A DNA stretch of 64,000 bases from Microbispora sp. NBC_01189 (GTDB lineage Bacteria; Actinomycetota; Actinomycetes; Streptosporangiales; Streptosporangiaceae), in NCBI RefSeq assembly GCF_036010665.1, contig NZ_CP108581.1:4321501-4385500 (forward strand), in the 5' to 3' direction. Of the stretch, positions 9,113 through 31,768 are shown one piece after another. Within the stretch, counting starts at the first letter, position 1. Every line of letters begins with the position of its first letter. The position numbers and the translations under genes were made by a program. The notes beneath the pieces are model-generated. The model was not told the origin of the DNA. It made no database searches and saw nothing but the letters and a program-made list of their open reading frames with translations.

Positions 9113-12100
9113 TCAGCTCCTGTCCGGGTCGCGTGGCCTGCCCCGCAGGCCCTCGAAACGGGCCCGTGCCAGCGCGGCACGCTCCCGGGCCGCCGCCGCC
9201 CGCCACTCGTTCTCCACACGGGCGGCGACCTCGTCCACCCGGGACTCCGCGAAGGAGCCCGCCGAGGCGTCCGGCTGGGAGTCCGTCCCGGTTTCCGCGG
9301 AGGCGGCGATGGCGTCCAGCAGCCCGAGAAACTCGCCGAGCATCCGGCGCGCGGTGGCGGGGGCGAAGGCGTCGGCGTTGTAGATCAGGTCGCCCCGCAC
9401 GACGGTCTCGGTCTGCACCACGTGCAGGGACAGGTCCTGGGTGGCGGTCGGCGCGTGCAGCTCCAGCGGCGCGACCTCCACGCCGGGCGGCCCGGGCACC
9501 CGGTCCGGGCGCCGGTGATACTCGATCTCCACGTGGAACAGCGGCGGCCGGTTGGCCCGGCGCGGTGGCCGCACCAGCTCCACCAGCCGGTCGAAGGGCA
9601 GCTCGGCGTGCGTGTGCGCGCCCAGCGTGGTCTCCCGCACCCGCGACAGGACGTCGCGGACGGTGTCGGCGCCCGAGACACCCGTACGCAGGACGAGCTG
9701 GTTGGTGAAGAAGCCGATGAGGGGTTCGACCTCGACCGCCGCTCGGTTCGCGGTGCCCGAGCCGACGACGAGGTCCGTCTGCCGGGTGTGCCGATGCAGC
9801 ACGATGAGGTACGCCGCGAGGACGGTCATGAAGACCGTGGCGCCCTCACGCAGCCCGAACGCGACGAGCGCGCGGGTCCGCTCCGGCGTGAGCGCGTACG
9901 GCAGGGACGCCGAACGGAAGACCGGGGTGGCCGGGAGGGGATGGTCGTAGGGCAGGTCGAGGGTCTCGGGGGCGCCCGCCAGCCGCTCCGTCCAGTACGC
10001 GGCCGACCGCCGCGTCACCTCGTCCAGGTGCCGTTCCTCCCACAGGGCGTAGTCGGCGTACTGGACCGGCAACGGCGGGAGGCCGGTGGGCTCGCCGCGC
10101 AGCCGCGCGGCGTAGGCCGCCCACAGCTCGCCGAACAGCACCTCCGAGGACCAGGCGTCGGTCACGATGTGATGGAGCGTCACCGACAGCAGGTGCCGGG
10201 CGGGTGACAGCCGCACCAGCCGCATCCGCAGCAGCGGGCCGCGCGCCAGGTCGAACGGCCGGGCCGCCTCGGCCTCGGCCAGCCGCCGCCCCTCCCGCTC
10301 GGCCTCGGCCTCGCCGAGCCCGCTGAGATCGGCCAGCGGCAGCCCTGACGGCACGTGCGCGGAGACGACCTGCCGCAGCGCACCGCCCACCTGGCGGAAC
10401 GTCGTACGCGGCGACTCGTGCCGCTCCCGGACGACGTCGGCGGCGTGGGCGAGGGCGGCCGGGTCCAGCGGGCCGTCCAGCCGCAGCACGGTCGCCACGT
10501 TGTGGTGTGCGCCGTCACGGTCGAGCTGGTCGATGAACCACAGGCGCCGCTGGGCGTGCGACAGCGGGATCGGCCGGTCGCGCCCCTGGGGCCGTACGGC
10601 GGGGACGGCGGGGACGGCGGCGCCGGACCCCTCCCGCATCGCCTCTTCCACCCGGTGCGCGAACCGCCCCGGCAGGGGCGCTTCGAACAGCACCCGGACG
10701 GGCAGGTCCACGCCGAGCAGGCGGCGGATCCGTGTCATCACCCGGACGGCGAGCAGCGAGTGGCCGCCTGCTGTGAAGAAGTCCGTCTCCGGGGTCACCT
10801 CGGTGCCGAGCACCTCGGCCCAGATGGCGCGCACCAGGTCGGCGACCTGCCCGGACGCCGGCGGGCTCGACGCGGACGGGCCGGGTGTCGACAGGCCGGG
10901 TGTCGACGGGCCGGAGCCGGTCGCCTCTTCCGCCCGCGCACCGGCGTCGTCCCCCGGACGCGCCGCCCCGTTGGCCCGCCGAGGACCCGGCATCGGCGAG
11001 CCCGGCGGCTCGGACCCCGCGAGTGCCCGGCCCGCGAGTTCGGACCCCGCGAGTGCCCGGCCCGCGAGTTCGGAGATCGGCAGGTGCGGCGCGTCGGCGG
11101 CGCGGGCCAGCAGCGCGGCGAACGCGCCCAGCACCCGCTCGGCGGTCCCGGCCTCGAACAGGTCGGCGCTGTAGCTGAGGGTCGCGACCAGCCCCTCCTC
11201 CCCGTCGCGCATGGTCAGCGACAGATCGAAGGTCTCCGGCGGATGCAGCAGACCGGCCGGGGCCACGGTGACACCGGGCAGGTCCCAGGTCGCGGGCGGC
11301 GTGTTCTGGAAGGCGAACATGACCTGGAAGACCGGGCTGTGCCCGGCGCCGCGCGGCAGGCGAAGTTCCTCCACGAGCCACTCGAACGGCACGTCCTGGT
11401 GCACGTACGCCGAGAGGGTCACCTCGCGGACCCGGTCGAGCAGGCCGGCGAAGGACGGGTCGCCGCCGAGGTCGGTGCGCAGCGCCACGGCGTTGACGAA
11501 GCAGCCGATCAGGTTCTCGACGTCGGCGTGGGACCGCCCGGCGACGGGACAGCCGACGACCACGTCCGTGTCGCCGGACCAGCGGTGGAGCAGCGCCTGG
11601 AAGGACGCCAGCAGCGTCATGAACATCGTCGCGCCCGAGGCCGCGCTCAGCGCGCGCAGCCTTCCGGCCACCCCCGGCGCGATGGTCGTCTCGGTGATGC
11701 CGCCCCCGCGTACGCGGCCGGCCGTGCGCGGATGGTCCGTCGGCAGGCCGAGCAGCGGCGGCGCGTCCGCGAGCCGCGACCTCCACCAGGTGAGCCCGGC
11801 CCGCAGCTCGTCGCCGTCCAGGCCGCGCACCTGCCACTCGGCGTAGTCGGCGAACTGCAGCGGCACGTCCGCGACCCGAGGCGCCTCGCCCCGGACGAAC
11901 GCCGCGTAATGGGCCGACAGCTCGCGGACCAGCAGGGAGTGGGACCAGCCGTCGGCCACGATGTGGTGGACGGACAGCAGCAGGACGTGTTCGGCGTCGC
12001 CGGTGCGCAGCAGCACGGCGCGCAGCATCGGACCGCGGGCGAGGTCGAAGTGGCAGCGTCCCTCCGCCTGCCGCAGGTCCCGTACGGCGGCCCGGCGCTC

Positions 12101-12559
12101 CTCGGGCTGCAGCGCCCTGAGGTCGACGAGCGGCAGGGACACCGGCCCGGGCGGCGTGACGACCTGCACCAGTCGCTCGTCCACCACCGGCCGCTCGTCC
12201 ACCTCGGCGAAGACGGTCCGCAGGATGGAGTGGCGGCGGACGACCGCCTCCAGCGCCCGGCGGAACGCGGCGACGTCGAGCGGACCGGTCAGCCGCAGCG
12301 CCTCCCGCGCGGTGTAGAGCCCGCCGCCCGGCTGCCACTGTTCGAGAAACCACATGCCGCGCTGTGCGTGGGTCAGCGGGGCGGGGCCGTCACCGGTGCG
12401 GCGCGGGATGCGGGAGCCGGCGGCTCCGGACCCACGTCCGCGCGCCAGGGCACGCTCCAGCAGAGCCCGTTCGAGCACCGCCCGCTTGGCCGGCGACAGC
12501 AGCGCGAGGCGGTCGCCCTGTGTCTCCCCGGCGGTGCCCTGTGTCTCCCCGGGGGTCAC
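9113..12559 (-). CDS. NRPS protein C-PCP-C lacking an adenylation domain
   Basis: The 1148-residue protein starts at GTG 12559, overlapping the A-PCP gene as GTGA. A short Ala/Arg-rich leader (residues 1-55) is followed by C1 (about 60-490, HHIVADGWS near 205), a long Pro/Ala/Ser linker with an internal exact repeat, a PCP (about 605-675, AGGHSLLA), and C2 (about 695-1110, HHIVTDAWS). There is no A domain between C1 and the PCP, so the PCP must be charged in trans, most simply by the free A-PCP protein just upstream or by the separate A-PCP-C protein at 28706-31768. C2 is the last domain and would abut the degenerate C domain of the next protein, giving a C-C arrangement across a protein junction. 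Confidence 0.93.
11011..11070. repeat. Perfect 30-bp tandem duplication inside the NRPS linker
   Basis: Two identical 30-bp units (11011-11040 and 11041-11070) lie in frame in the C1-PCP linker and encode [10 protein letters not shown] twice. Being a multiple of three it keeps the reading frame. It looks like a recent slippage event in a flexible linker. Confidence 0.9.
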
Positions 12560-15061: not shown

Positions 15062-16615
15062 TCAGACGGCCGGAGGCCGGCGCATGTGGGCGAAGTACTC
15101 GTACTGGCTGGGCAGTTCGGCGGTGGCCTGCGCCGTGCGCCGCCTCAGCCGCTCGAACTCCCGCTCGGCCGGTCCGGGATCGAGCATGTCCACGATCGGC
15201 CGCTGCGTCGTCGGGAGCCCGCCGAGGCCGAGCAGCAGGGTGGACCAGGAGTACGGCTCGAACCCGTGGTAGTAGGGGTAGACGCTCTCCGCGTCCGGCA
15301 GTTTGCGGCGCCACAGCCGCACCCGCTCGGCGAGGTCGCCGGGCAGCTCGCGTTCCTTGGTCGCCTTCCAGTACACGTTGTCCGTACGCGCGGCGGTGAA
15401 GTAGTGGAAGGCGAGGAACTCCCGGACGCCGTCGATGACCCGGCCCACCACCTGGTTGTAGTGCTCGATCAGCGCCGGGTCGGTCCGCTCGTCCGGGAAG
15501 TGCTTCACCAGCTGCTCGATGCCGTGCTGGATGAAGAAGATGCCGGTGGACTCCAGGGGTTCGACGAATCCGCTGGCCAGGCCGATCGCCACGCAGTTGC
15601 CGACCCACGAGCGCCGGCTGCGCCCGATGCGCATGCGGATGTGGTTGGCCTCCAGGTCGGCCGCCCCGGGGCCGGCCGCGGCGCGCAGCGCGGCCTCCGC
15701 CTCGTCGGGGGTGCAGTAGTCCTCGGCGTACACGTAGCCCATGCCGTTGCGGCCGAACAGCGGGATCGTCCACATCCAGCCGGCGTCCATGGCCGTGGCG
15801 GTCGTGTAGGGCACGATGCCGTCCCGCTCGATGTCGGCCGGCACGCGCAGCGCCACCGCGCGGTCGTTGGGCAGGAACCGCTGGAAGGAGATGAGCGGCT
15901 CCTCCAGCGCCTGGTTGATCAGCAGCCCCCGGAACCCGGTGCAGTCGACGTAGAGGTCCGCCTCCACGATCCCGTGTTCCTTGGTCACGAGGCCCGCGAT
16001 GCCGCGTTCGTCGCGCCGGCACTCCTGGATGAGGTCGGTGACCCGCTTCACCCCCATCGCGGTCGTCCTGCGCATCAGGTAGTCCGCGAGCAGGGCCGCG
16101 TCGAAGTGGTACGCGTACGGATACTGGGTGTCCTCCTCGGCCATCGTCGTACGCGACCCCACGGGCAGGGTCTTGTCGTCGGCGTCGAACAGCCGGCCGT
16201 CGAAGGTGTGGGGGGAGCGCATCGCGTCGCAGAGCCCCGAGATCATGAAGCAGTCGCGGTCGAAACGCTCGGACGGCCGCAGGCGCAGCCACCACTCCTG
16301 CAGCGGATACCCGTGTATCAGGGTCGGCCGCTCGAAGGGGTGATAGAAGTCGTGCCCGGGATGACGCCAGTTCCGGAACCGGATGCCCAGCTTGTACGTG
16401 GCGTTGCAGGCCGGCATCCAGTCGCGTTCCGCCAGCCCGATGTAGCTGAAGAAGTGACGGATCGTGCTGAAGGTCGCCTCGCCCACCCCGATGGTCGAGA
16501 TGGCCGGCGACTCGACCACCGTGATGTCGATCCGGTCGCCGAAGGTCGCCTGGAGATACGCCGCCGTCATCCAGCCGGCGGTCCCGCCACCGGCGATGGC
16601 CACACTTCTGATCAT
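15062..16615 (-). CDS. Flavin-dependent tryptophan halogenase (PyrH-like)
   Basis: The 517-residue protein contains GGGTAGW (9-15, FAD binding), the catalytic lysine Lys75 in [14 protein letters not shown] (280-285, the halogenase WxWxIP signature) and Glu355 in [10 protein letters not shown], matching the PrnA Lys79/Glu346 pair. From memory, stretches such as [19 protein letters not shown] and [16 protein letters not shown] are closest to PyrH, a tryptophan 5-halogenase, but regiochemistry cannot be settled by eye. It should use FADH2, O2 and chloride to chlorinate L-tryptophan or a tryptophan moiety. The flavin reductase follows directly, and a dioxygenase of the tryptophan 2,3-dioxygenase family opens the same operon. 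Confidence 0.96.
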
Positions 16616-18327: not shown

Positions 18328-21300
18328 TTAGTCCTCCCTGCCTGGGGCGCGTACGCCCGGGGCCGCGAGTGGCCGGGCGTCGCCGATCAGTCCCCGCAGC
18401 TCCCCCGCCCACCGATCGGCGAGCCGCCGGATCGTGGAGGCGTGGTACTGCGCGGGGCGGTAACCGATCTCGGTGCGGATCCGGCCGCCCGTGATGATCG
18501 CTTCGAACTGGAGTGTGTACGGGGTGACGGCGTCCGGGTCGATGTCCGGGCCGAACCCGTCGAGGCGGCGGCCCAGGAGCGGCCGCTCCACGGGCGCCGG
18601 GTCGATGTCGCCGCCGTAGGAGAACAGCACGTCCCCGGTGGGCAGTGCCGCCACCTGAGCCCTGACCCGCTCGTCCGCACTGAGGAACCGCAGCAGGTTG
18701 TCACCCGCGCCGTGGTGCGACGACCAGGTCCGGAGTTGGTCCGCGACCGCCGGGACGACGCCGGGGAGATCCTCCTGAGGGTCGATCTCCAGGAGCACCG
18801 GGACGTTGAGGACCAGCCAGCCGGCGGTCCGCGAGAGGTCCACGCCGTCGAGGAAGCCCTCCCGGCCGTGGCCGACCACGTCGACCAGGAACCGTCCCCG
18901 GCCCGTCCAGCGCGCCAGCGCCCGGGCCGCCGCCGCGAGCAGGAGGACGTCCAGCGGCTCCTGCTCGACCTCGACCGCCCGCCGGCGCAGCGCCGCCGTC
19001 TCGCCGGGGTCCAGCGTCGCGGCCTCGCCGTGCGTCAGGATCCCGGCGCCGGGCGCGCCGGGGACGTCCAGCGGCAGCGGCTCGACCCGGGTCCCCGCCC
19101 GCGCCGTCCACCGGGGCAGCTCCGCGCGTGCCTCCGTGCTCTGCGCGTACGCGCTGAGCCGCTCGGCCCAGGCCGTCACCGGCAGGGGCACCGGGTCGAG
19201 GACGATCGGGCCGCCGCGCCGCACCTGTTCCCAGGCCTGCTGCAGGTCGCCGAGCAGGATGCGCCAGGTGATCCCGTCGATCGCCAGGTGATGGAAGATC
19301 ACCAGCAGCCGCGCCGGACGCCCGGGGCCGAAGGTGAACAGGGCGAACGCGCACAGCCGCCCGTCCTCCGGGCTCATGGCCAGGTGCAGCTCCCGCTCGT
19401 GCCGGGCGAGCTCCGCCTCCTGCTCCCCGGGATCGGCGGAGGCGAGGTCGACATGGGTGAACGGATCGCACACCGCAGGGCCGGGGTCGGTCTGCCGCAT
19501 GCCTTCGGGGGTGGCGGTGAAGCGCATGCGCAACGACTGGTGGTGCGCGACCAGCGCCCGCACCGCCCGGTGCAGGGCGCCGGCGTCCACGTCGCACGGC
19601 ACTTCGAAGCGCTGCGACTGGTTGAAGTGGCCGGGGGTGACCAGCCCGAGGCCGAAGAACCATGCCTGCAGGGGCAGCAACGGCGCCGAGCCGGTCGCCG
19701 GCACGGCCTCTCCGGCCGTCGTCGTATTCGCCGTCCGCGTCCCGTTGGCCGCCACGGCCGTTCGCGCCGCGTCTCCCGCATGCGCCGCGTTCGCGGTCTG
19801 CATGGCCTCGGTGGCCTCGGTGGCCTCGGTGGCCTCGGTGGTCACCGCGGCCAGCGCGGCCACGGTCTGGTGCTTGAACACCTCGCGCAGGGTGAGGCGC
19901 AGGCCGCTCTGGTTCGCCTTCGCGATGAGCTGGACCGCGAGCATCGAGTTGCCGTGGACGAAGAAGCCGGTGCCCACATCGACGTCGGTCCGCCCGAGCA
20001 CGGATCGGAAGACCTCCAGCAGCCGCCGCTCCATCTCGGTGCGCGGCGGCCGTCCCGTGTCCCCTTCGACGCCGGCTTCCGGCTGGTGCCGTTCGCCGCC
20101 GCGCGCCCGCACGGCCTGGAGGATCTGCGCGGCCGTCGTCGGCCCGGCCGGGCCGACGACGGCCCGCCGCCTGGGCCGCCGGGAGGCACCCGCACCGGGG
20201 ACGACCCCCGGGACGGGACCGGTGGCAGCCCCGGAGCCGGGACCAGGGGTGCCTCCGGAGGCGGTCGCGGCGGCGGGACCGCTCGCGGCCTGGCTGCGGC
20301 CCGTCCACCCGACCGGGATCGTGGTCGTCGCGCCGTCCGATACGGCGGCGTCACCGCCCGCCAGACCCGCCAGGTAGGCGCGCATCGCGTCGTTGCGCGG
20401 CGTCGCGCGGTACGGGAAGGCGAACGTGGCGCAGCCATGGGCGGTCGCGGCCTCGGTGAGCCGGTCGAGCACCCGGTCCTCGACGCCCTTGCCCAGCACC
20501 GGGCAGGTCAGTACCCACGCGTCGACGACCAGTGTCCCGCCGTCGGGATGGGCCACCACCACGCCGCTGAACCCGTGGTCGCCGAAGCGGTCGCTGACCG
20601 TCACACCCCAGCGGATCGACCCCGGGGCAAGCCCCTCGAACCGCTCCTCGAACCGTTCGGCGGGCCACTCCGCGCCGTCCAGGTGGAACTCCGCGACCCG
20701 TCTGGTGAGGTCCGCCGCCGCCTCGTACAGGTCGGGCGACAGCGGTGTGCAGGTGACGACCAGGCGCAGGCTCGCGAGAAAGCCCTCCAGGGTCGGCGGC
20801 GTGTCCGGCGCGCTCGCCTCGCCGGATACGTCCCGGTCACCGGCCTTCGGCGGCGACTGGTCGGTGAGGGCGCCGCCGTTCAGCAGCTCCGGCCAGCGCT
20901 CCCGGTCCGGAGGCAGCTCCAGCGTCTCCACCTGCGGCAACTCGCGGGCGACGGCCGCGACGGCGGCGCCGTCGGTGCTCAGGAAGACGATCCGGTCGCG
21001 GCCTGCCGACAACCGCTCCGCCAGGTCGCGGATCTGCTCGGTACGGCCCGGTCCCGCCTGGTCGCACAGTGCGACGGCGGCTCCCGCGCGGACCGCCTCG
21101 GCGAGGTAGGCCCGCAGGCTCGTCTCGGGGCCGCCCTGTCCCCGGTCGCCGGCGAGGAGCCCGGCGTCGAGGACGAACAACCGGCTCCCGGAGCGGCGGG
21201 CGAGCACGACGGCCCTGCCGATCCGCCGGCCCAGCAGGTGGAAGTACTCCTCCGAGTACGGGATCCGGGCGGCGGCGAGCAGAGCGGGGTTGCAGGCGTT

Positions 21301-21933
21301 GGCGCTGCCGATCGCGCGGGCCACGGCCTCCCCGTCCACGATCGACACGCCCTCGCGACCGGCGAGCAGGCGGCGCGCCGACTCCCGTGCCCGGGTCGCG
21401 GACGCGAACACGCCGGCGGCGTTGCCGTCGTCGCCCACCCCCGTGGGCCGGATCTCGGGCACCGGCGGAAGCGTGAACAGCAGCCGCGCGCCCCACCGCC
21501 CGGCCGCGTCCAGGCAGATGTCCGCGACCTCCCGCAGATCCGGCTCGTACGCCGGGAGGTCGTCGAGCGGGAGTCCCCGGCCGGCCCACAGGTCCTCAAG
21601 CCGGGGTGCGACGACGAGGATCTCCGGCCCGTAGCGCGCGGTCTCCGAGGCGTCGTCGAGGCACTGCCGCTGGATCTGGTCGTACGGCCCGACTCGCAGG
21701 TCCGCGCGGACATCCGCGTCGTCAAGGGCGGTGCCGAGGTAGGGGACGAGCGGATCGACGGTGAAGGTCGACAGCAGCGCCACCCGTAAGGCACCGGCCG
21801 GGGCCTCGCGTGCCATCTTCGGCCAGCGCAGCCGCGCCCGCAGCCGCTCGGCGGCCGAGCCGCTGCCGGAGACGGCGGCGGCGCCGGGACCGGAACCGGG
21901 GTCCGTGCCGGGGCCGTACGACGGGTCGGTCAC
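18328..21933 (-). CDS. FkbH-like (degenerate HAD) - ACP - epimerisation-like domain protein
   Basis: The GTG at 21933 is preceded by AGGAGG with 7 bp spacing and overlaps the E2 stop as GTGA; 1201 residues. Residues 40-560 follow the FkbH plan: an N-terminal domain (VALLSTFTVDPLVPYLG), a HAD-like core and a GNAT-like end (VSDRFGDHGFSGVV, TCPVLGKGVEDRVL). Canonical FkbH has DLDNTLW; here the motif is FVLDAGLLAGD (first Asp 256), so the second Asp is lost and phosphatase activity is doubtful. A carrier domain follows (Ser663 in HGNSML). Residues 751-1185 are epimerisation-domain-like: PLQAWFF, HFNQSQRF, FHHLAIDGITWRIL, LSRTAGW. Its EGHGRE motif is VGHGRE, losing the Glu considered catalytic in TycA. 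FkbH proteins normally load glyceryl from 1,3-bisphosphoglycerate; with E1/E2 genes next door this one may load another acyl unit. Confidence 0.88.
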   Translation of the reverse strand: MTDPSYGPGTDPGSGPGAAAVSGSGSAAERLRARLRWPKMAREAPAGALRVALLSTFTVDPLVPYLGTALDDADVRADLRVGPYDQIQRQCLDDASETARYGPEILVVAPRLEDLWAGRGLPLDDLPAYEPDLREVADICLDAAGRWGARLLFTLPPVPEIRPTGVGDDGNAAGVFASATRARESARRLLAGREGVSIVDGEAVARAIGSANACNPALLAAARIPYSEEYFHLLGRRIGRAVVLARRSGSRLFVLDAGLLAGDRGQGGPETSLRAYLAEAVRAGAAVALCDQAGPGRTEQIRDLAERLSAGRDRIVFLSTDGAAVAAVARELPQVETLELPPDRERWPELLNGGALTDQSPPKAGDRDVSGEASAPDTPPTLEGFLASLRLVVTCTPLSPDLYEAAADLTRRVAEFHLDGAEWPAERFEERFEGLAPGSIRWGVTVSDRFGDHGFSGVVVAHPDGGTLVVDAWVLTCPVLGKGVEDRVLDRLTEAATAHGCATFAFPYRATPRNDAMRAYLAGLAGGDAAVSDGATTTIPVGWTGRSQAASGPAAATASGGTPGPGSGAATGPVPGVVPGAGASRRPRRRAVVGPAGPTTAAQILQAVRARGGERHQPEAGVEGDTGRPPRTEMERRLLEVFRSVLGRTDVDVGTGFFVHGNSMLAVQLIAKANQSGLRLTLREVFKHQTVAALAAVTTEATEATEATEAMQTANAAHAGDAARTAVAANGTRTANTTTAGEAVPATGSAPLLPLQAWFFGLGLVTPGHFNQSQRFEVPCDVDAGALHRAVRALVAHHQSLRMRFTATPEGMRQTDPGPAVCDPFTHVDLASADPGEQEAELARHERELHLAMSPEDGRLCAFALFTFGPGRPARLLVIFHHLAIDGITWRILLGDLQQAWEQVRRGGPIVLDPVPLPVTAWAERLSAYAQSTEARAELPRWTARAGTRVEPLPLDVPGAPGAGILTHGEAATLDPGETAALRRRAVEVEQEPLDVLLLAAAARALARWTGRGRFLVDVVGHGREGFLDGVDLSRTAGWLVLNVPVLLEIDPQEDLPGVVPAVADQLRTWSSHHGAGDNLLRFLSADERVRAQVAALPTGDVLFSYGGDIDPAPVERPLLGRRLDGFGPDIDPDAVTPYTLQFEAIITGGRIRTEIGYRPAQYHASTIRRLADRWAGELRGLIGDARPLAAPGVRAPGRED
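19804..19839. repeat. Four 9-bp tandem repeats in the ACP to E-domain linker
   Basis: The unit GGCCTCGGT occurs four times in a row, encoding Glu-Ala-Thr repeats (EATEATEATEA, about residues 700-710) just after the carrier domain. Frame-preserving minisatellite-like linker expansion. Confidence 0.9.
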
Positions 21934-23162
21934 CACGTCACCTCCTGCGGCCGTTCCATCGCCGCCTTGAACGCCGTCATGAACTCGGCGGCGTCGCGTC
22001 CGTTGATCACTCTGTGGTCGTAGGCGAGACCGGCCGCGAGGTAGGCCCGCCGCCCCACCCGGCCCGTCTCGTCGTCGAGGACCAGCTCGGTCTGCACCGA
22101 GGGGATCGACACCATGCACACCTGCGGGGGAAGGATGAGGGGAATGGCGGCGAGCACGTCGGGGTCGCTGTTCAGCGAGACCGACAGATGTCCCTCGGCC
22201 AGGTCGGCCGCGCGGAAGGAGTCCCGGAGCGCGGCGACGCGCAGCTCCATGACGCGGTCGGCGATCTCGCCCAGGCCGCGCGCGCCGGCGTCCTCCACAA
22301 GCGGGACGAACAGCCCGGTGCCCACGTCGACGGTGACCCCGATGTCGGTGCGTCCGCCGGGAGGGCGCAGCCGGTGCCCGTCCTCCAGGCGGCTGAAGAA
22401 CACGGGGAAAGCGGGCCGCAGACCGGCCAGGATCCTGATCGCCGCCTCGGGGACGCCGGCCGCCGTCCCGTTCGCCGCGTTCCACTCGCGCAGGTGGCCC
22501 AGGAGGGCGTCGCAGTACACCTTCATGACCAGGAACGCGGCGGGCACTGACTGGTGCGACCGGGTCACCACCCTCGCGATCGCCTGCTGACGCGGCGACA
22601 ACGACGCGCCGGACGGCCCCGTCGGCACGGGCCGCGGCACGGACCGCGGTGCGGGCTCCGATGAGGGCTCCGGCGAGGGCTCCGGCGAGGGCTCCGCCCG
22701 CGCGGCCACTCGTGCGGCCATTCGCGCGGCCAGCGCCTCGACGTCGGCGCGCTGGACGATCCGCTTGCCGAGTGAGCGGAGCTGGGCCGTGGTCAGCCCC
22801 GCCTCCTCGCTCAGCCTGCGGGCCGGCTCGGTGAGCACGAACGTCCCGCCCTCGCCGTCCACACGCGTCCCACCGGTCTCCGGTCGGCCGCTTCCGCCCT
22901 GTCCGGCCAGGTAGTCAAGCCGTTCCCGCTCGTCGGCGAAGACGTAGCCGATCACCTCGCCGACCCGGCACTCGGCCCCGGCGGGCACCGCCGCGTGCAG
23001 GATCCCGGTGATCTCGCTGTGGATGTCGGCGGCGGCCTTCGACGTCTCGACCACGGCGACGACCGCCGTCTCCTCGACCTCCGTCCCGTCGGCGCGGGTC
23101 CACTCGACGAGCCGGCAGGTGTCGTCGTTGCTGTTCAGCCTGGGCACTTCTAGGGCGCGCAT
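21930..23162 (-). CDS. 2-oxoacid dehydrogenase E2-type acyltransferase with lipoyl domain
   Basis: This 410-residue protein shows the three-part E2 plan. The lipoyl domain (about 1-80) has its lysine in ETSKAAADIHSE; a peripheral-subunit binding motif follows at about 108-145 (TEPARRLSEEAGL); after a Pro/Ser/Glu linker (EPSPEPSPEPSSEP) comes the acyltransferase core (about 190-405). The catalytic motif reads DHRVINGRDAAEF, so the usual Asp of DHRxxDG is Asn while the His is kept. It overlaps E1 beta by 13 bp and the FkbH-like gene by 3-4 bp. It should accept an acyl group on its lipoyl arm from E1 and pass it to CoA or, more interestingly, to the carrier domain of the adjacent loading protein. 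No E3 gene is in the window. Confidence 0.93.
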   Translation of the reverse strand: MRALEVPRLNSNDDTCRLVEWTRADGTEVEETAVVAVVETSKAAADIHSEITGILHAAVPAGAECRVGEVIGYVFADERERLDYLAGQGGSGRPETGGTRVDGEGGTFVLTEPARRLSEEAGLTTAQLRSLGKRIVQRADVEALAARMAARVAARAEPSPEPSPEPSSEPAPRSVPRPVPTGPSGASLSPRQQAIARVVTRSHQSVPAAFLVMKVYCDALLGHLREWNAANGTAAGVPEAAIRILAGLRPAFPVFFSRLEDGHRLRPPGGRTDIGVTVDVGTGLFVPLVEDAGARGLGEIADRVMELRVAALRDSFRAADLAEGHLSVSLNSDPDVLAAIPLILPPQVCMVSIPSVQTELVLDDETGRVGRRAYLAAGLAYDHRVINGRDAAEFMTAFKAAMERPQEVTW

Positions 23163-24175
23163 GCCACCATCCGTTCGCGCACTCGGGTGACGATGTCCTC
23201 GGTCTGCACGACGACCCGACGTTCGAGGTGCCGCGCGGCGGGGATGACCCGGTCGCGGGAGCCGATCAGGCCGACGGGACCGGACAGCCGGTCCCAGCAG
23301 GTCTCGGCCAGGCGCTGCGCCACCTCGGCGCCCCAGGTGGCTCCGGGCGTGCTCTCCTCGGCGACGAAGACGTGCCGGGCCCGCGCGACGTCGTCAAGGA
23401 TCGGCTCGGGATCGAGGGGGTAGAGTCGGGAGGCGACGGCGACGGTCACGTCGATCTCGTCCTCCAGCAGCAGGGTCCTGGCCGCATCGAGGGCGCGGGA
23501 GACCATCCCGCCGGCGACGATCAGCAGGCATCCGCCGCCGTCCACGGCGGAGGTCACGCGGGCCCAGTGGCGTTCGTCGTCGGCGTACTCGTAGCCGAAC
23601 AGCTCGTCGATCGGCCCCGGCGCGCGCATGCGCTGCCCGTACACCGTCTTGTTCTCGAAGAACATGCCGGGGCGGCCCGAGCCCAGCATGCGGCGCAGGA
23701 CGTCCAGGGTGTCGTGCAGGGGGGACAGCTCGTACAGGTCCAGGTCGGGGATGCCGACGAAGTGCTTCTGGAGGCTCTGGCTGTGCGTCGGGCCGTACCC
23801 GCGGTTGGCGCCCGTGGGCACCCGCACGACGACCGGCACGGGCAGGGTCTCGCCGAACATCGAGACCGACTTGGCCGAGACGTTGAGGATCTGGTCGAAG
23901 CACAGCGCGGCGAAGTCGCCGAACATCATCTCCACGATCGCGCGGTTGCCCGTGAGCGCCAGGCCGTTGGCCACCCCCACGATGCCGTTCTCACTGATCG
24001 GGGTGGACAGCACCCGGCCGGGATACTTCGTGGACAGCCCGGCGGTGACCTTGAACGCCCCGCCGTAGGGGTCGGCCACGTCCTCGCCGAGCAGGAACAG
24101 CCGGGGATCCTCGGCGAGCAGCGTGTGCAGCGCGCCGTTGAGGTTGTCGAGGACCCGGTCGGTGGTGGTCAGCAC
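23150..24175 (-). CDS. 2-oxoacid dehydrogenase E1 component, beta subunit
   Basis: The GTG at 24175 begins LTTTDRVLDNLNGALHTLLAEDP and overlaps the alpha-subunit gene by 7 bp; 341 residues, normal for the family. E1-beta hallmarks include LLGEDVADPYGGAFKVT, TPISENGIVGVANGLAL and FGDFAALCFDQILN, followed by the C-terminal transketolase-like domain (LLIVAGGMVSRALDAA). Together with the alpha subunit it forms the thiamine-diphosphate enzyme that decarboxylates a 2-oxoacid, or cleaves a ketose, and hands the two-carbon or larger acyl unit to E2. Confidence 0.94.
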   Translation of the reverse strand: MLTTTDRVLDNLNGALHTLLAEDPRLFLLGEDVADPYGGAFKVTAGLSTKYPGRVLSTPISENGIVGVANGLALTGNRAIVEMMFGDFAALCFDQILNVSAKSVSMFGETLPVPVVVRVPTGANRGYGPTHSQSLQKHFVGIPDLDLYELSPLHDTLDVLRRMLGSGRPGMFFENKTVYGQRMRAPGPIDELFGYEYADDERHWARVTSAVDGGGCLLIVAGGMVSRALDAARTLLLEDEIDVTVAVASRLYPLDPEPILDDVARARHVFVAEESTPGATWGAEVAQRLAETCWDRLSGPVGLIGSRDRVIPAARHLERRVVVQTEDIVTRVRERMVACAP

Positions 24176-25068
24176 GGCACCGCCGCCCACCGCGCCGGCT
24201 CGCGGGCCAGGACCTCGTGGACGGCCGCCTCCACGGTGGCGCGGGCCGCCGCGTCCGCCGCCTCGACCCGGCCGGGGAAGTGGCGGGAGTAGGCGGCGAG
24301 CCAGTCGCGCTCGCGAAGGGCCCGCACCTCGTCCGCGTCGCGGGTGTCGTCGCCCTTGCTGTGCGGCCCGAGCCGTACGGTGTCGAACTCGACGACCAGC
24401 GGCCCGCCGCCGTCGCGCACCCGGCGCAGACACGGCTTCAGCTCGCCGCGGATCTCCATCACGTCCCGCGAGGTGACGAGCCGGTAGGCGGCGTCGAAGG
24501 CCTCCGCCCGGCCGCGTACGGACCCCGCGAGGTGGTGGCGCAGCGGCGTCGTCTGCGCGATGTGGTTGTTCTCGACGGCGAGCACGAGCGGCACCTCCCA
24601 GAGGCGGGCCATGTTGAGCGCCTCGTACACCGCGCCCTCGCCGAACGTGCCGTCGCCGACATAGGCGAGCGCGAGCGCGCCGCCGCCCTCGCGCCGCAGG
24701 TGCAGCGCGGCGCCGACGGCGACCGGGACGCTCTCGCCCTGCACCCCGCTGGAGAGGTAGGTGCCCCGCCGGAGATGCTGGCTGCCGCCGACCCCGCGGC
24801 ACACCCCGCCTTCCCGGCCGGTGATCTCGGCCAGCAGCGGGACGGGGTCGCGGAAGCGCGCGAGGTAGTGGCCGTGGCCGCGGTGGTTGCTGAACAGATG
24901 GTCGCCGTCGCGCAGCAGCGGAGCGAGCGCCACGGGAACGTACTCCTGCCCGATGCAGGTGTGCGTCGTGCCGTCGATCAGCCCCTGGCCGAACAGTCGC
25001 AGCAACTCCTCCTCGAAGCGGCGGATGAGGAGCATCAGGTAGAGGTCGTCGTCGCCGGGGCTACGCAT
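24169..25068 (-). CDS. 2-oxoacid dehydrogenase E1 component, alpha subunit
   Basis: The 299-residue protein contains THTCIGQE near the N-terminus and the thiamine-diphosphate motif GDGTFGEGAVYEALN ending in VLAVENN (about 155-190), typical of PDH/BCKDH/acetoin-type E1 alpha. The phosphorylation-loop-like region HSKGDDTRD is kept. Its ATG at 25068 overlaps the dioxygenase stop by 8 bp. Substrate is not evident: pyruvate and branched-chain oxoacids are possible. In naphthyridinomycin and quinocarcin clusters, E1/E2 homologues take a hydroxyacetyl unit from a ketose phosphate, and the absence of E3 here fits such a non-oxidative reaction, but that is inference. Confidence 0.94.
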   Translation of the reverse strand: MRSPGDDDLYLMLLIRRFEEELLRLFGQGLIDGTTHTCIGQEYVPVALAPLLRDGDHLFSNHRGHGHYLARFRDPVPLLAEITGREGGVCRGVGGSQHLRRGTYLSSGVQGESVPVAVGAALHLRREGGGALALAYVGDGTFGEGAVYEALNMARLWEVPLVLAVENNHIAQTTPLRHHLAGSVRGRAEAFDAAYRLVTSRDVMEIRGELKPCLRRVRDGGGPLVVEFDTVRLGPHSKGDDTRDADEVRALRERDWLAAYSRHFPGRVEAADAAARATVEAAVHEVLAREPARWAAVPC

Positions 25069-26305
25069 GCGGCGCTCCGGGGTCGTCCGAGGCGAGCGGT
25101 CCAGTGAACAGGCGGTTGTCCAGCGCGTCGCGGAGATAGGGGACGCCCTCGGTGTAGCCGGTGCCGACCTCCGCGCCGATCATGCGGGACGCCATTTTCC
25201 AGTGCGTACGCTTCCAGCGCTGGTGCACCCTCTCCAGCTCCGCCGCCGCCTCCCGCACCAAGGTGATTTCATGTTCATCTATCGCCCGCCGGATCATTGA
25301 ATCCTTGATTAACGAGCTCACATCGCTCCACCCGGCCTCGACGCGGTCGCGCACGCGCGGCACCTCTCCGTACGCGGGTGATTCGAGGCGCCGCGGGGAA
25401 GGAGCGGAGCAGTAGGTCTCGAAAGTCTTGTACGCCTCGGACTGGATGGCGCTCGCACCCACCGTGTAGGCGCGGAAAATCTGGAAGGAATCCGGCTTCA
25501 TCGTCGCGAGGAGCGAGAACAGGCCGCGAACCGCCGACAGCGTTTCCGCGCACCGGACGATGCCGGCCGCCGCGTTCTCCGCGTCGTCGCGGGCCGCTGC
25601 GGCGACGGCGTCGCGCATTTCCGCGGCCATCGCTGCGAATGTGACCTCGAAGGCCTGCAGGACGCGAATGAACATGTACTCGTCGTGCACCACGAACACC
25701 GGCTGAATGGACAGCGAGAGCCGGAGGAGCAGGTCGTCCGGCGCGCCGGCCAGGAGCGCGGCGGCGGTCCGCGCGGGGTCGCGCGGGGGTCCGGCCGGAT
25801 CCGGATCCGGAGGCGTGGCGGCCGAAAGGGCCGCGTCGAGGAGGGCGAGCCGCTTGCGGGTGAGCGCGGCGTCGGGGCGTCGTTCTGGCAGCCGGTCGTG
25901 TGTCCCGTCGCGGGCGCCCAGCTCAAAGGCGCGCAGGTCGGCCAGCAGCGGCCCGAACCACCGCTCGCGCTGGCGCCGCCCGGTGGCCGCGTCCGCCTCG
26001 GGCGTCAGGCCGAACAGGCCGAGCCCGAGATAGGAGCTGTAGGTGTAGGTGCCGTCCCACTTGTCGAGGGCGACGGCGAGGAAGTCGTCGAGCGGCGCCC
26101 GGTCGCGGCGGGCTCCGGCGGCCGGCGCGAGCGACCGGCGGACGGATGCGAGCCTCCGGAGCAGCGGCTCCGGGGCGAAATGCTTTCCATGACGGCGAAA
26201 ACACGACATGACGGCTTCGTATGGGAAGTATTCGGGACCGTCGTTCTCGTCCCACGCGGCGAGCTCATCGAGCAAACCGTGCGGGATCGTCGCGGCGTGC
26301 GTCAC
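25061..26305 (-). CDS. Tryptophan 2,3-dioxygenase-like haem protein
   Basis: The 414-residue protein opens the operon. Family signatures: GTYTYSSYLGLGLFGL, VVHDEYMFIRVLQAFE and, near the C-terminus, RTHWKMASRMIGAEVGTGYT ending GVPYLR; its His should be the proximal haem ligand. TDO normally cleaves the indole ring to N-formylkynurenine. Two oddities are visible. About 120 residues separate SYL from HDE, against roughly 20 in ordinary bacterial TDO, giving a longer protein. The distal-His segment, normally QHQTSEL, reads VLQAFEV, so the distal His is replaced by Leu. It may therefore perform a related chemistry, as MarE and other haem-dependent aromatic oxygenases do. With the halogenase it could make a chlorokynurenine-type residue. 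No kynurenine formamidase is seen. Confidence 0.85.
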   Translation of the reverse strand: MTHAATIPHGLLDELAAWDENDGPEYFPYEAVMSCFRRHGKHFAPEPLLRRLASVRRSLAPAAGARRDRAPLDDFLAVALDKWDGTYTYSSYLGLGLFGLTPEADAATGRRQRERWFGPLLADLRAFELGARDGTHDRLPERRPDAALTRKRLALLDAALSAATPPDPDPAGPPRDPARTAAALLAGAPDDLLLRLSLSIQPVFVVHDEYMFIRVLQAFEVTFAAMAAEMRDAVAAAARDDAENAAAGIVRCAETLSAVRGLFSLLATMKPDSFQIFRAYTVGASAIQSEAYKTFETYCSAPSPRRLESPAYGEVPRVRDRVEAGWSDVSSLIKDSMIRRAIDEHEITLVREAAAELERVHQRWKRTHWKMASRMIGAEVGTGYTEGVPYLRDALDNRLFTGPLASDDPGAPHA

Positions 26306-26603: not shown

Positions 26604-26636
26604 CACTGCGAAACCGATTTGCACCCGGGGGGGCTC

Positions 26637-28670
26637 GTGACGGTACGTGTCATCGGCATTAACTTGAGCCACGACAGCAGTGCCTGCCTCGTGGAGAACG
26701 GGGAGATCCGGGCGGCCCTCGCGCTGGAGCGCGGCACCCGGGTGAAACGCGGGACCGTGCCGCCGCACACGTACGCCGCCGCCATGGCCGACCTGACGGG
26801 CGAGCTCCTGCGGCACGCGGGGCTGACCTCCGCCGACGTCGACTACTGGATCACCACCTCGACCGAGTCGCGCGACGACGAGGACGAGGCCGGCCTGTCC
26901 CGCGTCCTCGGCCTGCTCGTCCCGCCGGAGCGTGCCCTGCACCTGCCGCACCCCGGCCATCACCTGGCCCACGCCGCCTCCGCCTTCTACTCCTCGGGAT
27001 TCGGGGAGGCGGCGGCCCTGGTCATCGACGCGTACGGCTCGCTGCTGGGCGGCGGGCGCGAACGCGAGTCGGCGTTCCACTTCCGGCCGGGCGAGACACC
27101 CGAGTGCGTGCTGCGCACCACCCGCGACTCCGAGAGGGCCGCGGGCCACCGCCGCGACGGGGAGATCTGGCTGCCCCTCGATCTGTCGGGCGTCGGCGAG
27201 GTGTACCGCGTCGTCACCCTCGCGCTCGGCTTCCACGAGGCCGGGACCATCTACGACGACGCCGGCAAGACGATGGGACTCGCGTCGTACGGCAAACGGC
27301 TGACGAGCGAGAACCTCTTCATCGACCTGCTCCCGGACGGCGGGCTTTCCTTCGGCCGCTTCGCCGGCTCGCTGCAGGAACTGGGCGTCGCCGTACGGGA
27401 GGGCGAGGAGCTGCGGCTGGTGCCCCGCCCGCCGCGAGGCGCGTTCACCCGCTTCCACCACGACCTCGCCGCGCAGGTGCAGGCCGAGTTCGAGGACGCC
27501 TGCCTGCATCTCACCCGGGAGGTGCTGCGCCGCACGGGCAGTCGGTCGCTGGTCGCCGCCGGCGGCTGCTTCCTGAACTCGATGCTCAACACGCGCCTGC
27601 TGCGTGAGACCGAGATCGACCGGCTCTTCGTCTTCCCCGCCGCGACCGACGACGGCAACGCGGCGGGGGCGGCACTCTACGCCTACCACAACCTCACCGG
27701 TCGTCCCGCCGAGCCCGGCCCCGCGCTGAGGCACGTCTACCTCGGCCCTTCACGGACCGCGGGGCGGGACCTGCGGCCGCTCGCCGAGCGCTGGGGGCTG
27801 CCCGCGCGACGTCACGAGAGCCCGGCGCGGATCGCCGAAGCCGCGGCGGCGGCCATCGCCCGCGGCGAGATCGTGGGCTGGTTCCAGGACCGCGCGGAGT
27901 TCGGCCCGAGGTCGCTCGGCGCCCGCTCGATCCTCTGCCATCCGGGCATCCCGAGCATGAAGGACCGGCTCAACGCCCGGGTGAAGTTCCGGGAGGGCTT
28001 CCGCCCGTTCGCCGGGTCCGTCCTGGTCGAGCAGGCGCACAAGTGGTTCGACATGCCCGCCGACGAGAGTCCCTTCATGCTGCTCGTCTGTCCCGTGCTG
28101 CCCGACCGGCAGGACGAGATCAGCGAGATCACCCACATCGACGGCACCTGCCGGATCCAGACGGTCGGCGAGGACACGCCGGGGCCGTTCCGCGCGCTGC
28201 TGGAGGCGTTCGAGCGGGAGACCGGCCTGCCGCTCGTGCTCAACACCTCGTTCAACCTGCGGGGGATGCCGATCGTCGAGCGTCCGGAGGAGGCGGTCGA
28301 CTGCCTGTACGGCGCCCGGCTCGACCGGCTGTTCATCGGCGACCTGGAAATCGAGCCGGTGGACTTCGCCGGATTACGCCCGGAACGCGTCGAGACCTCC
28401 TTCCAGTGGAGCGCGAGCCGTACGGCGTCGCGCACGATGTCCGCGGCCCGCGCCGGCATCCCGGCGGAGGGCCTGGCGGTCCTGGAGCTCTGCGACGGGG
28501 CGCGCACCATGCGCGACATCGCCGCCGGGGCCGGACTCGAGGTGGACGCGGCCGTCGATCTCGCGCTCGACATGCGCCGGCACGGGCTGCTGCGCTGGGC
28601 CGGGGTGCCGGTGGTGACGCCGCCGCGCTACCCGCTCGCCCAGTACCTCCCCGACTCCCACGCCGACTGA
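26637..28670 (+). CDS. Carbamoyltransferase (NodU/CmcH/TobZ family) with a PqqD-like C-terminal extension
   Basis: The GTG at 26637 after a G-rich ribosome-binding stretch starts the family N-terminus VRVIGINLSHDSSACLVENG; an upstream in-frame TTG at 26619 is less likely. 677 residues. The Kae1-like domain (about 1-360) includes HPGHHLAHAASAF with metal/ATP-site histidines; the YrdC-like domain follows with FGPRSLGARSILCHP, FREGFRPFAGSVL and LNTSFNLRGMPIV, all typical of O-carbamoyltransferases. It should transfer a carbamoyl group from carbamoyl phosphate to a hydroxyl of the product. After about residue 600 there is an extra winged-helix-like segment (VLELCDGARTMRDIAAGAG to GLLRWAGV) resembling PqqD-type peptide-binding domains, which may recognise carrier-bound substrate. 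Confidence 0.93.
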   Translation: MTVRVIGINLSHDSSACLVENGEIRAALALERGTRVKRGTVPPHTYAAAMADLTGELLRHAGLTSADVDYWITTSTESRDDEDEAGLSRVLGLLVPPERALHLPHPGHHLAHAASAFYSSGFGEAAALVIDAYGSLLGGGRERESAFHFRPGETPECVLRTTRDSERAAGHRRDGEIWLPLDLSGVGEVYRVVTLALGFHEAGTIYDDAGKTMGLASYGKRLTSENLFIDLLPDGGLSFGRFAGSLQELGVAVREGEELRLVPRPPRGAFTRFHHDLAAQVQAEFEDACLHLTREVLRRTGSRSLVAAGGCFLNSMLNTRLLRETEIDRLFVFPAATDDGNAAGAALYAYHNLTGRPAEPGPALRHVYLGPSRTAGRDLRPLAERWGLPARRHESPARIAEAAAAAIARGEIVGWFQDRAEFGPRSLGARSILCHPGIPSMKDRLNARVKFREGFRPFAGSVLVEQAHKWFDMPADESPFMLLVCPVLPDRQDEISEITHIDGTCRIQTVGEDTPGPFRALLEAFERETGLPLVLNTSFNLRGMPIVERPEEAVDCLYGARLDRLFIGDLEIEPVDFAGLRPERVETSFQWSASRTASRTMSAARAGIPAEGLAVLELCDGARTMRDIAAGAGLEVDAAVDLALDMRRHGLLRWAGVPVVTPPRYPLAQYLPDSHAD

Positions 28671-28705: not shown

Positions 28706-31700
28706 CTACCGGTCCGGGTGACCGGCGGCGGCCGCGACGGTCCGGGTGAACCGTCCGGCCAGGGCCCGCGCGGTGGCGGCGGTGAACAGGTCCGGACGGT
28801 AGTGGAGCAGGCCGTTCAGCTCGCCGTCACCCTCTTCTACTGTGACCAGCAGATCGAGGGCGTTGCCGCCCTGCCCCGACCGGAGCGGCGTGCTCTCCAG
28901 GCCCGGCAGGCCGCCCCGGTCGCCGTGCGCGGCGAGTGACTGGAACCCCACCTGCGCGACGGGAGTGCGGGCGAGGTCGCGCGGTGGCCGCAGCGCGGCG
29001 ACGAGATGGTCGAACGGCAGCGCCTGATGCCGGTAGGCGCCCAGCGCGGTCGTGCGGACGCGGCGCAGCACCTCCCCGAATGCGGGCTCGCCCTCGAACC
29101 GCATCCGCAGGGCGAGCGTGTTCACGAACATCCCGACGAGCCGCTGCGTCTCCACCGACTGGCGGTGGCTCGCGAAGGTGGCGACGACGAAGTCGTCCTG
29201 CCCCGAAAGATCCCTGATGGTCACGGCGAACGCGGCCAGCAGCGCCATGTAGGAGGTGGCGTCCGCCCGTACGGCCACGCCCGCCAGCGCGCGGGCGACC
29301 GGGGCGGGCACGGTGAAGCCCACGACCGCGTCGACGGACTCCTCCGGCACGCGGCGAGGGAAGTCGGTCGGCAGGTCCAGCACCAGGGGCGCGCCGTCCA
29401 GTTCCGCGCGCCAGTAGTCGAGATGCGCGCGCAGCGTCTCGGCGTGCGACGCCCCGCGCTGCCACACCGCGTAGTCCGCGTACCGCACGGTCAGCGGGGC
29501 GAGGGCGGGGGTGGCCCCGGCGGCGCGTGCCCGGTAGCAGGCGCGCAGGTCACTCCAGAGCACGTCCATCGACCAGTCGTCGGCGACGATGTGGTGAACC
29601 ACGATCAGCAGCACGTGGTGCCCGGGGCCCAGGCGCAGCAGCGTCGTCCGCAGCAGCGGCCCCTTGCCGAGACGGAACGGCCGGCGCGCCTCCCGCTCGA
29701 CCAGCGCGTCGACCACGCCGGCGCTCTCTTCGGCGTCGATCACGTCGAAGACGCAGACCGTGTCCTCCGCGACCACCTGGTACGGCACGCCGCGGTCGTC
29801 GTGGAACGTGGTGCGCAGCGCCGGCTGCCGCCGGACCACGTCGGCGAGGGCGGCGCGCAGCGCGGCGACGTCGAGCGGGCCACGCAGCCGATACGCCTCG
29901 AAGAGGGTGTAGTCGGTGCTCCCGGGCATGATCCGGTCGAGCAGCCACAGCCGTTCCTGCGCGAAGGCCAGTGGATACCGCGCCCTGGGCGCGGCGGCGG
30001 TGACCGGCCCGTCCGCCGCGGCGGCGGCGTCGACGACCTCGGCGAGGGCCTCGACGGTCGTCGCGGCGAGCAGGTCGGCCACGCTCACCTCGCGGCCGAA
30101 CTCCTCGCGGACCCGCGCGCAGATCCTCGCGGCCGACAGGGAGTGGCCGCCGAGTTCGACGAACCCGTCCCTGACCCCGATGGGCGAGACGCCGAGCACG
30201 CTCCGCCAGATCTCGACGAGCCGGCGCTCGGTGCCGGTCCGGGGTCCGGGTGGGAGCGGGCCGCCGGCCTCCGGCCGTACGGGAACGGCCGCGAGCGCGT
30301 CGTGGTCGATCTTGCCGTTCGGCGTGAGGGGGATCGCGCCGACCGTGACGATCCGCGCGGGCACCGCCCAGGACGGCAGCACCTCACGCAGGCGGGCCGT
30401 CACCCTGCCGGGGTCGGACGCCGCGCCGGGCGCGGGGACGACGTAGGCGACGATGCTCGCCTCCCCGTCCACCAGCTCGCGCCGTCCGACGACCACGTCC
30501 CGCACGCCGGCGGCGGCGCGCAGCGCCGTCTCCACCTCGCCGGGCTCCACCCGGTGGCCGCGCACCTTGAGCTGCCGGTCGGCCCGGCCCTCGAACACCA
30601 GGTCGCCGTCCGGGAGGGTCCTCACCAGATCGCCCGTACGGTAGGCGCGTCCGCCACCGCCGGCGGGGTCGGGGACGAAGCGCGCCGACTCGCTCGCGGG
30701 GGCGCCGATGTATCCCCGCGCCACGCCGGTGCCCGCGACGACCAGCTCTCCCGTGCCGCTCGCGGCCGGCCGGCCGTCCTCGTCCACGACGTACAGCCGG
30801 TTGCCGGTGACCGCGCGGCCGATCGGGGTCCGTCCGGCCCGGTCGCCCCCGACGCGCGGCACCGGGTGGAGCGTGCAGCAGATGGTGGCCTCGGCGGGAC
30901 CGTACCCGTTCACGACGGTCAGCCGGGGGCGGGCCTCCATGAGGTCCTGCAGGACGCCGAGGGGGATGGGCTCGACGCCGACCAGCAGCCGGGCCAGCCC
31001 CGCGCAGGCCTCCGGGTCCGTACGGAGGAGGGCGAGCAGGTCGGGGAGGAACGCGCCGGGCACGTAGGCGCTGCCGACCTCGGCGTAGGACAGGAAGCCG
31101 GCGAGTCGGGGCCCCTCCAGGCGGCACTCGTCCGGGACCACCACGACCGTCCCGCCGTGCAGCAGGGGGCTCCACGACTCCCAGACCGACACGTCGAAGC
31201 TCGGCCGGGTCCACCACGAGCCGCGGTGCGCGGACCCGGCGGGCGCGAGCCGATCGAGGTCGGCGACGAGGTTCAGCACGCTGTGATGCTCGACCTCCAC
31301 CCCCTTGGGCACGCCGGTCGAGCCCGACGTGTGGATGACGTACGCGACGTCCCCGGGGTGGAAGGATTCGGGTTCGCACGAGCCCGCCGGGGACTCGTCC
31401 GGCGTGAGGATCGGGCACGGGCCGTCGCTCGCGGGCCGCTCGGCCACGCACACCCGGGCGCCGCAGTGGCCGAGCATCGCAAGCGTCCGCCGCCGGGGCT
31501 GCCGCGGGTCGAGCGGGACGTAGGCGCCGCCGATCAGCAGGGTGGCGATGGTCGCGACGACGGCGTCCCGCCCGGGGGAGAACAGCACGCCGACCCGGTC
31601 ACCGCGTCCGGCGCCGCGCTCGGCGAGGACGGCGGCGAGCCGCGAAGCCCGCCGTACGAGGCCGGCGTAGGAGAGGACACCACCGGAGTCGGACACTGCG

Positions 31701-31768
31701 GGCCTGTCCGGCGCCTCCCGGGCGGTCCGCAGAACCGACTCGACCAGAGATGCGCCCTGCCACGCCAC
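28706..31768 (-). CDS. NRPS A-PCP-C, separate from the main operon
   Basis: The 1020-residue protein starts at GTG 31768 and ends 35 bp from the carbamoyltransferase stop, so the two genes are convergent. The A domain (about 1-500) has [37 protein letters not shown] and NGKID. Pocket residues read by eye are D-V-W-Y-L-G-G-I-C-K, which I cannot assign. A PCP (LGGHSLSA, about 545) and a C domain (about 590-1010, HHIVADDWS) follow. Ending on a C domain means it hands its aminoacyl group to a PCP on another protein. It could be the first amino-acid module or could charge the A-less C-PCP-C protein. A TTGACA hexamer lies upstream on the minus strand (31812-31807) without a convincing -10. Confidence 0.92.

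Follow-up and report, generated by a model that had tools for sequence, protein, structure and literature searches.

Within a 64,000-nucleotide stretch of Microbispora sp. NBC_01189 (contig NZ_CP108581.1, positions 4,321,501 to 4,385,500; hereafter the window), we found a hybrid nonribosomal peptide synthetase (NRPS)-polyketide synthase (PKS) cluster in which genes for E1alpha, E1beta and a lipoyl-bearing E2, of the kind known from the naphthyridinomycin (Nap) cluster, adjoin a gene for an FkbH-like protein. This protein has lost most of the catalytic motifs of its HAD part and kept the conserved residues of its GNAT-like acyltransferase part, the gene set recurs in other bacteria, and the cluster holds a second FkbH piece and, outside the window, a NapC-type acyl carrier protein (ACP). 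We propose, giving the idea about an even chance, that the Nap-type E1alpha/E1beta/E2 set feeds an NRPS module lacking an adenylation (A) domain by way of a phosphatase-dead FkbH acyltransferase.

Five genes overlap in series on the minus strand: a tryptophan 2,3-dioxygenase (TDO)-like gene (25061-26305), E1alpha, E1beta, E2 and the FkbH-like gene, with overlaps along this row of 8, 7, 13 and 4 nt, given the inferred E1beta start. E1alpha (24169-25068, NapB-like, 299 aa) matches E1_dh at 6.7e-45 and shares 46-60% identity with six gene-cluster relatives, and E1beta (23150-24175, 341 aa, start codon inferred) matches Transket_pyr and Transketolase_C, with 53.6% identity to its counterpart in Streptomyces sp. 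NBC_01136 and 42.5% to that in Paenibacillus. E2 (21930-23162, 410 aa) joins a lipoyl domain (Biotin_lipoyl, lysine motif ETSKA present) to a catalytic domain (2-oxoacid_dh, motif DHRVINGRD). The FkbH-like gene (18328-21933) encodes 1201 aa with a sub-threshold FkbH match followed by PP-binding and Condensation matches; its open frame of 1385 aa reaches to 22485, which is a mechanical limit, and the GTG at 21933, from which the gene overlaps the end of E2 by 4 nt, is the likely start codon. These profile matches (Pfam, NCBIfam) and overlaps support what a sequence-only reading of this DNA had claimed, that the E1/E2 complex is coupled to an FkbH-like protein. The E1 glutamate (PISE) and histidine positions, which have catalytic roles, are kept in the alignments of both subunits to human pyruvate dehydrogenase. 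All 25 lipoamide dehydrogenase (E3) matches of this genome fall outside the window, in agreement with that reading's statement that no E3 is present; only two exceed the cut-off, one at 2.39 Mb and the other at 5.55 Mb.

The FkbH-like protein reads as a NEX part (residues 46-247, 21193-21798) with an SGNH-like fold, a degenerate and shortened HAD part (residues 252-350, 20884-21180), a GNAT-like part (residues 390-542, 20308-20766) that contains Cys477, a thiolation (T) domain (19846-20028, PP-binding 9.3e-7) whose serine is present (HGNSM), and an epimerization (E)-like domain (18394-19692). What the sequence-only reading had called an ACP on this protein is indeed a carrier with its serine; it is of the peptidyl carrier protein type, and the cluster encodes its NapC-type ACP on its own, beyond the window. 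Against the NCBIfam FkbH model TIGR01686 the protein scores 86.2 bits, below the cut-off of 146.65; five other E1/E2-linked FkbH proteins score 55-75 bits, compared to 293.7 for an intact second copy. The reduced HAD aspartate pair was also correctly read: in FVLDAGLLAGD (residue 253) alignment places the first aspartate of motif I as kept and the second as glycine, and the motif II serine, motif III lysine and motif IV aspartate pair are all lost.

This decay is shared by six further FkbH proteins linked to E1/E2 sets. DxDxT is absent from all seven, the window's included, and present in all 27 comparison FkbH proteins, two of which are intact second copies that stand beside a decayed one within Micromonospora clusters. 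The motif II serine, the motif III lysine and both motif IV aspartates are likewise missing from all seven (columns aligned against 18 of the 27), and in motif I the threonine is never found, while the first aspartate is kept in five, including the window, and the second in five. Phosphatase activity is unlikely, given the loss of motifs II-IV. The D, the R and both G residues of DRxGxxG, the cysteine (477 here) and an asparagine (514) of the GNAT-like part are nevertheless present in seven of seven, and this survival beside a decayed HAD part argues for a working transfer domain. Displacement of the HAD catalytic residues to another place in the domain, named beforehand by the sequence-only reading as the finding that would speak against it, is ruled out by the lack of DxDxT and of motifs II-IV in all seven proteins.

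HAD decay accompanies E1/E2 in this non-random sample, with seven dead and two intact linked FkbH proteins compared to no dead and 25 intact others (Fisher 6.7e-6, a value that overstates independence). The 27 comparison proteins came from 16 of the loci listed in genus and family scans, five of 71 plasmid records, four further loci and the two intact second copies; 10 belong to the window's own genus and are mostly near-copies, and L026 has internal stops. A near-identical record from Streptomyces sp. NBC_01384, with the same identities, was left uncounted. At 20 of the 25 other comparison loci the scan for E1/E2 covered only 3.3-4.8 kb. Five of these 25 loci contain a lone, weak E2-like catalytic match (27-34 bits), with DxDxT kept and no lipoyl or E1 match within 3.7-4.8 kb. 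We take this layout of a lone E2-like acyltransferase and an intact FkbH to be the tetronate cluster type, which shares with the window an FkbH protein and an E2-type catalytic domain and differs from it by the kept DxDxT.

The phylogeny suggests a single dead FkbH lineage. In a first tree of 34 rows, five of them badly cut, three intact rows fell among the dead ones; in a second, from which 10 of the 34 rows without the anchor motif were left out, the dead Paenibacillus protein among them, the six dead rows formed one side of a branch with support 90/89. In searches with the FkbH part, phmmer returned one PDB match only (E 0.87), a single-protein scan of genome contigs found no relative, and no ortholog was found in 14 other genomes of the genus and 40 others of the family, where FkbH relatives reached only 24-37% identity. 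An AlphaFold2 model built from seven sequences (mean pLDDT 65.8, which is middling; pTM 0.51), on which Foldseek was also run, fits the order NEX, pseudo-HAD, GNAT, with SGNH/GDSL folds matching the NEX part and GNAT folds the GNAT-like part at Z about 13-14.5 for each. Its best whole-model match was the N-terminal part of BF1531 (3slr, Z 19.5) at a root-mean-square deviation of 9.1 over 290 residues, indicating that the model is not a single rigid body.

The gene set recurs in other bacteria, as a check for it in further clusters revealed, which places the window's arrangement beyond chance. In Lentzea sp. (L063), Amycolatopsis eburnea (L109) and a plasmid record of Streptomyces sp. NBC_01136 the order is ACP-E1alpha-E1beta-E2-FkbH, and in Micromonospora sp. 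HK10 (L052) and M. yasonensis (L090) it is ACP-FkbH-KASIII-like-FkbH followed by E1alpha-E1beta-E2 (with the KASIII domain checked for L052 alone). A plasmid record of Paenibacillus polymyxa YT9 has an ACP and E2, then ACP-E1alpha-E1beta-FkbH-T-thioester reductase, so that the set with an ACP and a dead FkbH spans two phyla. Locus L052 (4810-13068), with a decayed and an intact FkbH, the KASIII-like gene and the E1/E2 set together, offers a natural side-by-side comparison.

An NRPS gene on the minus strand begins in the window (3-2906, profile matches) and ends outside it (L008 15047); it reads TubC_N-C-A-T-C-NEX', C being a condensation domain and NEX' the second FkbH piece of the cluster. 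A luciferase-like monooxygenase of the MupA/Atu3671 type is inserted within its A domain. By Pfam, no PP-binding match lies behind the last C domain and no T domain directly follows NEX' on the same protein, and the candidates for the T of this C-NEX' module are the T on the FkbH-like protein and the NapC-type ACP. That ACP (76 aa, L008 14820-15050, genome 4317319-4317549) overlaps the NRPS stop with its start by 4 nt and is 43% identical to the ACP preceding E1alpha in the Streptomyces cluster.

Homologous layouts place the FkbH-T or T-E' pair at the end of a chain. The Streptomyces sp. NBC_01136 NRPS before the exporter reads C-NEX-T-C-NEX-T-E', with a homologous T-E' pair at its end; in the Lentzea frame C, T and NEX each match twice, with one weak match; and in both Paenibacillus and the window an NRPS ends in C-NEX without a T, which the FkbH protein carries instead, ahead of a thioester reductase in Paenibacillus and of E' in the window. 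These T-E' and FkbH-T-reductase endings, together with the C-NEX lacking a T, point to a terminal or extension unit rather than a starter. The sequence-only reading had favored a starter, so that FkbH-T would be a loading module, acylated by E2, from which the chain begins; FkbH-T does adjoin E2 in the operon, and FkbH proteins often provide glyceryl units, but in view of the endings just described we consider this version distinctly improbable.

The last domain of the FkbH-like protein belongs by sequence to the epimerization family within the Condensation superfamily, its top PDB matches being TycA and a stretch of PvdL with EGHGRE. The glutamate of EGHGRE plays a role in epimerization. It is replaced in the three proteins checked, by valine in the window (VGHGRE, exactly as the sequence-only reading had given it), alanine in Streptomyces and threonine in Micromonospora HK10. 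The loss is thus common to homologous clusters, and the E-like domain probably does not epimerize.

A route for the acyl group can be proposed from these comparisons. E1 with thiamine diphosphate would acylate the lipoyl arm of E2, either with two carbons drawn from a ketose phosphate or by decarboxylating hydroxypyruvate, and a housekeeping E3 would re-oxidise that arm. The E2 catalytic domain would then transfer the acyl group onto the thiol of a phosphopantetheine arm, for which the NapC-type ACP, encoded at the other end of the cluster, is the likeliest bearer. The FkbH-like protein, without the HAD residues for bisphosphoglycerate and presumably inactive toward it, would use its GNAT-like part, perhaps through the invariant Cys477, to move the acyl group to the T of the C-NEX-T module, here on the FkbH-like protein itself. 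The upstream chain would be coupled to this unit by the last C domain of the NRPS, the one ahead of NEX', and the E-like domain without its glutamate would come next. In this way we infer the substrate, the relay path, the kind of bond and the position of the unit.

The naphthyridinomycin and dnacin clusters pair E1- and E2-type proteins with a small ACP in a proposed transfer of a two-carbon hydroxyacyl into an NRPS, namely NapB/DinU (306 aa), NapC/DinT (ACP) and NapD/DinS (754 aa), accompanied by NapE/DinQ (KASIII, 336 aa) (PMC7570522). Length and kinship suggest that NapB corresponds to an E1alpha and NapD to a fusion of E1beta with E2; the window differs in having separate E1beta and E2 genes, an FkbH partner and no KASIII-like gene among its annotated genes. 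Priming of a carrier protein by E1/E2 as such has already been proposed for naphthyridinomycin and pepteridine (PMC7570522, PMC5384830), the naphthyridinomycin unit being termed a glycolicacyl extender and the pepteridine E2-T-C fusion being proposed to prime its carrier directly, with E3 borrowed from the host (PMC5384830). The window would resemble the pepteridine system in this respect, but pepteridine, as far as described there, has no FkbH and draws its acyls from 2-oxo acids.

On the FkbH side, the position between C and T that an A domain usually takes is occupied by an FkbH-type domain in the C-FkbH-T modules of vioprolide, cystomanamide and corramycin, which load glycerate, in corramycin by proposal (PMC8949500, PMC10099666). 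Like them, the window puts an FkbH piece where an A domain would stand; unlike them, it has lost the HAD phosphatase residues through which those modules load glycerate, and it has E1/E2. In BurF of malleicyprol (C-NEX-T-Red), NEX likewise lies between C and T and is suggested to aid transfer, and BurJ and BurH place an alpha-hydroxy acid on the T in trans (PMC12304814); this loading uses ATP and, as described, no E1/E2. The C-FkbH-T and C-NEX-T modules known so far accept glycerate or some other alpha-hydroxy acid, and for this reason the unit in the window should be an alpha-hydroxyacyl. Nap-type E1/E2 chemistry would yield a glycolyl thioester, and glycolyl is therefore the simplest candidate meeting both demands and the one we favor. 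That E1/E2 supplies the acyl group in place of phosphoglycerate, as the sequence-only reading had supposed, is in this sense supported by comparison only.

The kinship to NapB and NapD, which that reading had raised, is borne out by the E1alpha family alignment, against which the three E1alpha copies of this genome score 520-543 bits (window 520) and the next E1alpha 178. The E2 alignment of seven relatives agrees: the canonical aspartate of DHRxxDG is absent from all seven, with NG in six and TG in one. DHRVINGRD, correctly read as it was, cannot be counted as damage, and we rejected that candidate as a family trait. The two further E1alpha/E1beta/E2 sets of the genome lie at 4.64 Mb (L010 3819-7152) and 7.02 Mb (L009 2976-6531). 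The first has E1alpha, an ACP, E1beta and E2 in one frame, and a KASIII-like gene (KASIII models below their cut-offs), which is the NapB-C-D-E order, and is near-identical to a set in Microbispora amethystogenes; the second adjoins an NRPS.

To place these sets in a wider context, we scanned genome contigs with seven E1alpha proteins, which gave 579 confirmed relatives, and kept the best 80, a census that leans toward the window's E1alpha. All four of the E1alpha, E1beta, lipoyl and E2 catalytic domains were present in 73 of these best 80 loci. An E1/E2 tree of 80 sets (the 73 census loci, six others and the window, with the seven census loci lacking a part left out) united the 10 Nap-order sets in one clade (SH-aLRT 99). 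The E1alpha DNA motif occurs in 13 of 396 genomes sampled evenly across the phylum, the window's among them; four of the other 12 were inspected, and one (L113) has a full E1/E2 set with no FkbH within 19.5 kb.

Several of these observations weigh against the proposed relay. An FkbH-type protein (NEX with GNAT-like part) stands in the flanks of only 4 of the best 80 census loci, those of Lentzea, Amycolatopsis and the two Micromonospora, suggesting that E1/E2 sets work mostly without FkbH. The E1/E2 tree puts the window's set on a long branch outside the Nap-order clade and requires five changes to account for the FkbH-linked sets; by sequence the window's set appears to be related to the Nap sets and to work like them without itself being a Nap set. 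Both motif I aspartates survive in three of the seven linked FkbH proteins (Streptomyces and the two Micromonospora), and the first does in the window. The C domain preceding NEX' resembles ordinary C domains such as Txo1 and Txo2, the Pfam score of the ACP, 20.5 bits, is marginally below the cut-off of 20.8, and an A-less C-T-C protein in the window (9113-12559, minus strand, profile matches) is a possible alternative acceptor.

The rarity of FkbH beside E1/E2 fits another arrangement, in which the T or the ACP would be acylated straight from E2 with no GNAT-like relay, leaving the FkbH part as no more than a scaffold for docking or a remnant. The flanks of the remaining 76 of those 80 loci showed no FkbH-type protein, and the naphthyridinomycin and pepteridine proposals require none; the retention of the GNAT-like residues despite HAD decay argues instead for transfer, and we consider direct loading unlikely. 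In Streptosporangiaceae and other actinobacteria, a nearby NapC-type ACP is missing from many E1/E2 sets; at the two such loci inspected, L043 (8392-12994) and L046 (9709-12934), a peptidyl carrier domain ends directly before E1alpha, in L043 fused to an A-less C domain.

A further explanation is that E1/E2 convert a 2-oxo acid into an ordinary acyl group, be it acetyl, propionyl or branched, as in the pepteridine proposal, and prime another A-less carrier such as the T of C-T-C, with FkbH acting in a separate step. The A-less C-T protein of L043 and the small PP-binding frame of L046 just before E1alpha would suit this explanation, as would the C-T-C in the window and the E1 positions that match pyruvate dehydrogenase. 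The E2 and FkbH-like genes overlap, however, the set with an ACP and a dead FkbH recurs in two phyla, and the decayed HAD is left unexplained, so that we hold this explanation to be quite unlikely.

Returning to the proposed relay, it may reach beyond this genome: a phosphatase-dead FkbH lineage in actinobacteria and Paenibacillus may pass alpha-hydroxyacyls, made by E1/E2 from central sugar phosphates, into C-NEX-T modules without adenylation, a generalization that we advance tentatively and rate somewhat short of even. A literature search by title and abstract start, with most subscription journals outside its coverage, found no description of the combination of E1/E2 and FkbH. If true, the relay would unite Nap-type two-carbon loading with the hydroxy-acid incorporation of C-FkbH-T and C-NEX-T modules, which have so far been known separately. 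A natural FkbH protein that transfers without dephosphorylating would also isolate the transfer step, a step that for NEX is described as open in PMC12304814, and hydroxy-acid units would be predicted in orphan clusters where they are invisible to prediction based on A domains.

The remainder of the cluster comprises an A-T-C protein (28706-31768), an MFS exporter, a Trp_halogenase-family enzyme, a flavin reductase, an A-T protein, the C-T-C protein, a partial C with A-T, and a PKS module of ketosynthase, acyltransferase and ACP (KS-AT-ACP; 2900-6202, minus strand, an open frame with its start not fixed) that shares 49% identity with its counterpart in the Streptomyces sp. NBC_01136 cluster. 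The TDO-like gene at the head of the E1/E2 row scores 62.6 bits and, at 414 aa, is longer than the usual enzyme. It shares the cluster with the Trp_halogenase-family gene (15062-16615) and the flavin reductase, and one building block may be a tryptophan that has been halogenated and oxidised in its ring. On the opposite strand, 26619-28670 (+) encodes a NodU-like carbamoyltransferase with a C-terminal winged-helix-like match. Between 44000 and 62000 the GC content is about 0.59-0.63, compared to about 0.74 in the cluster, and a crude scan gave a weak coding signal; this region is possibly acquired DNA adjoining the cluster.

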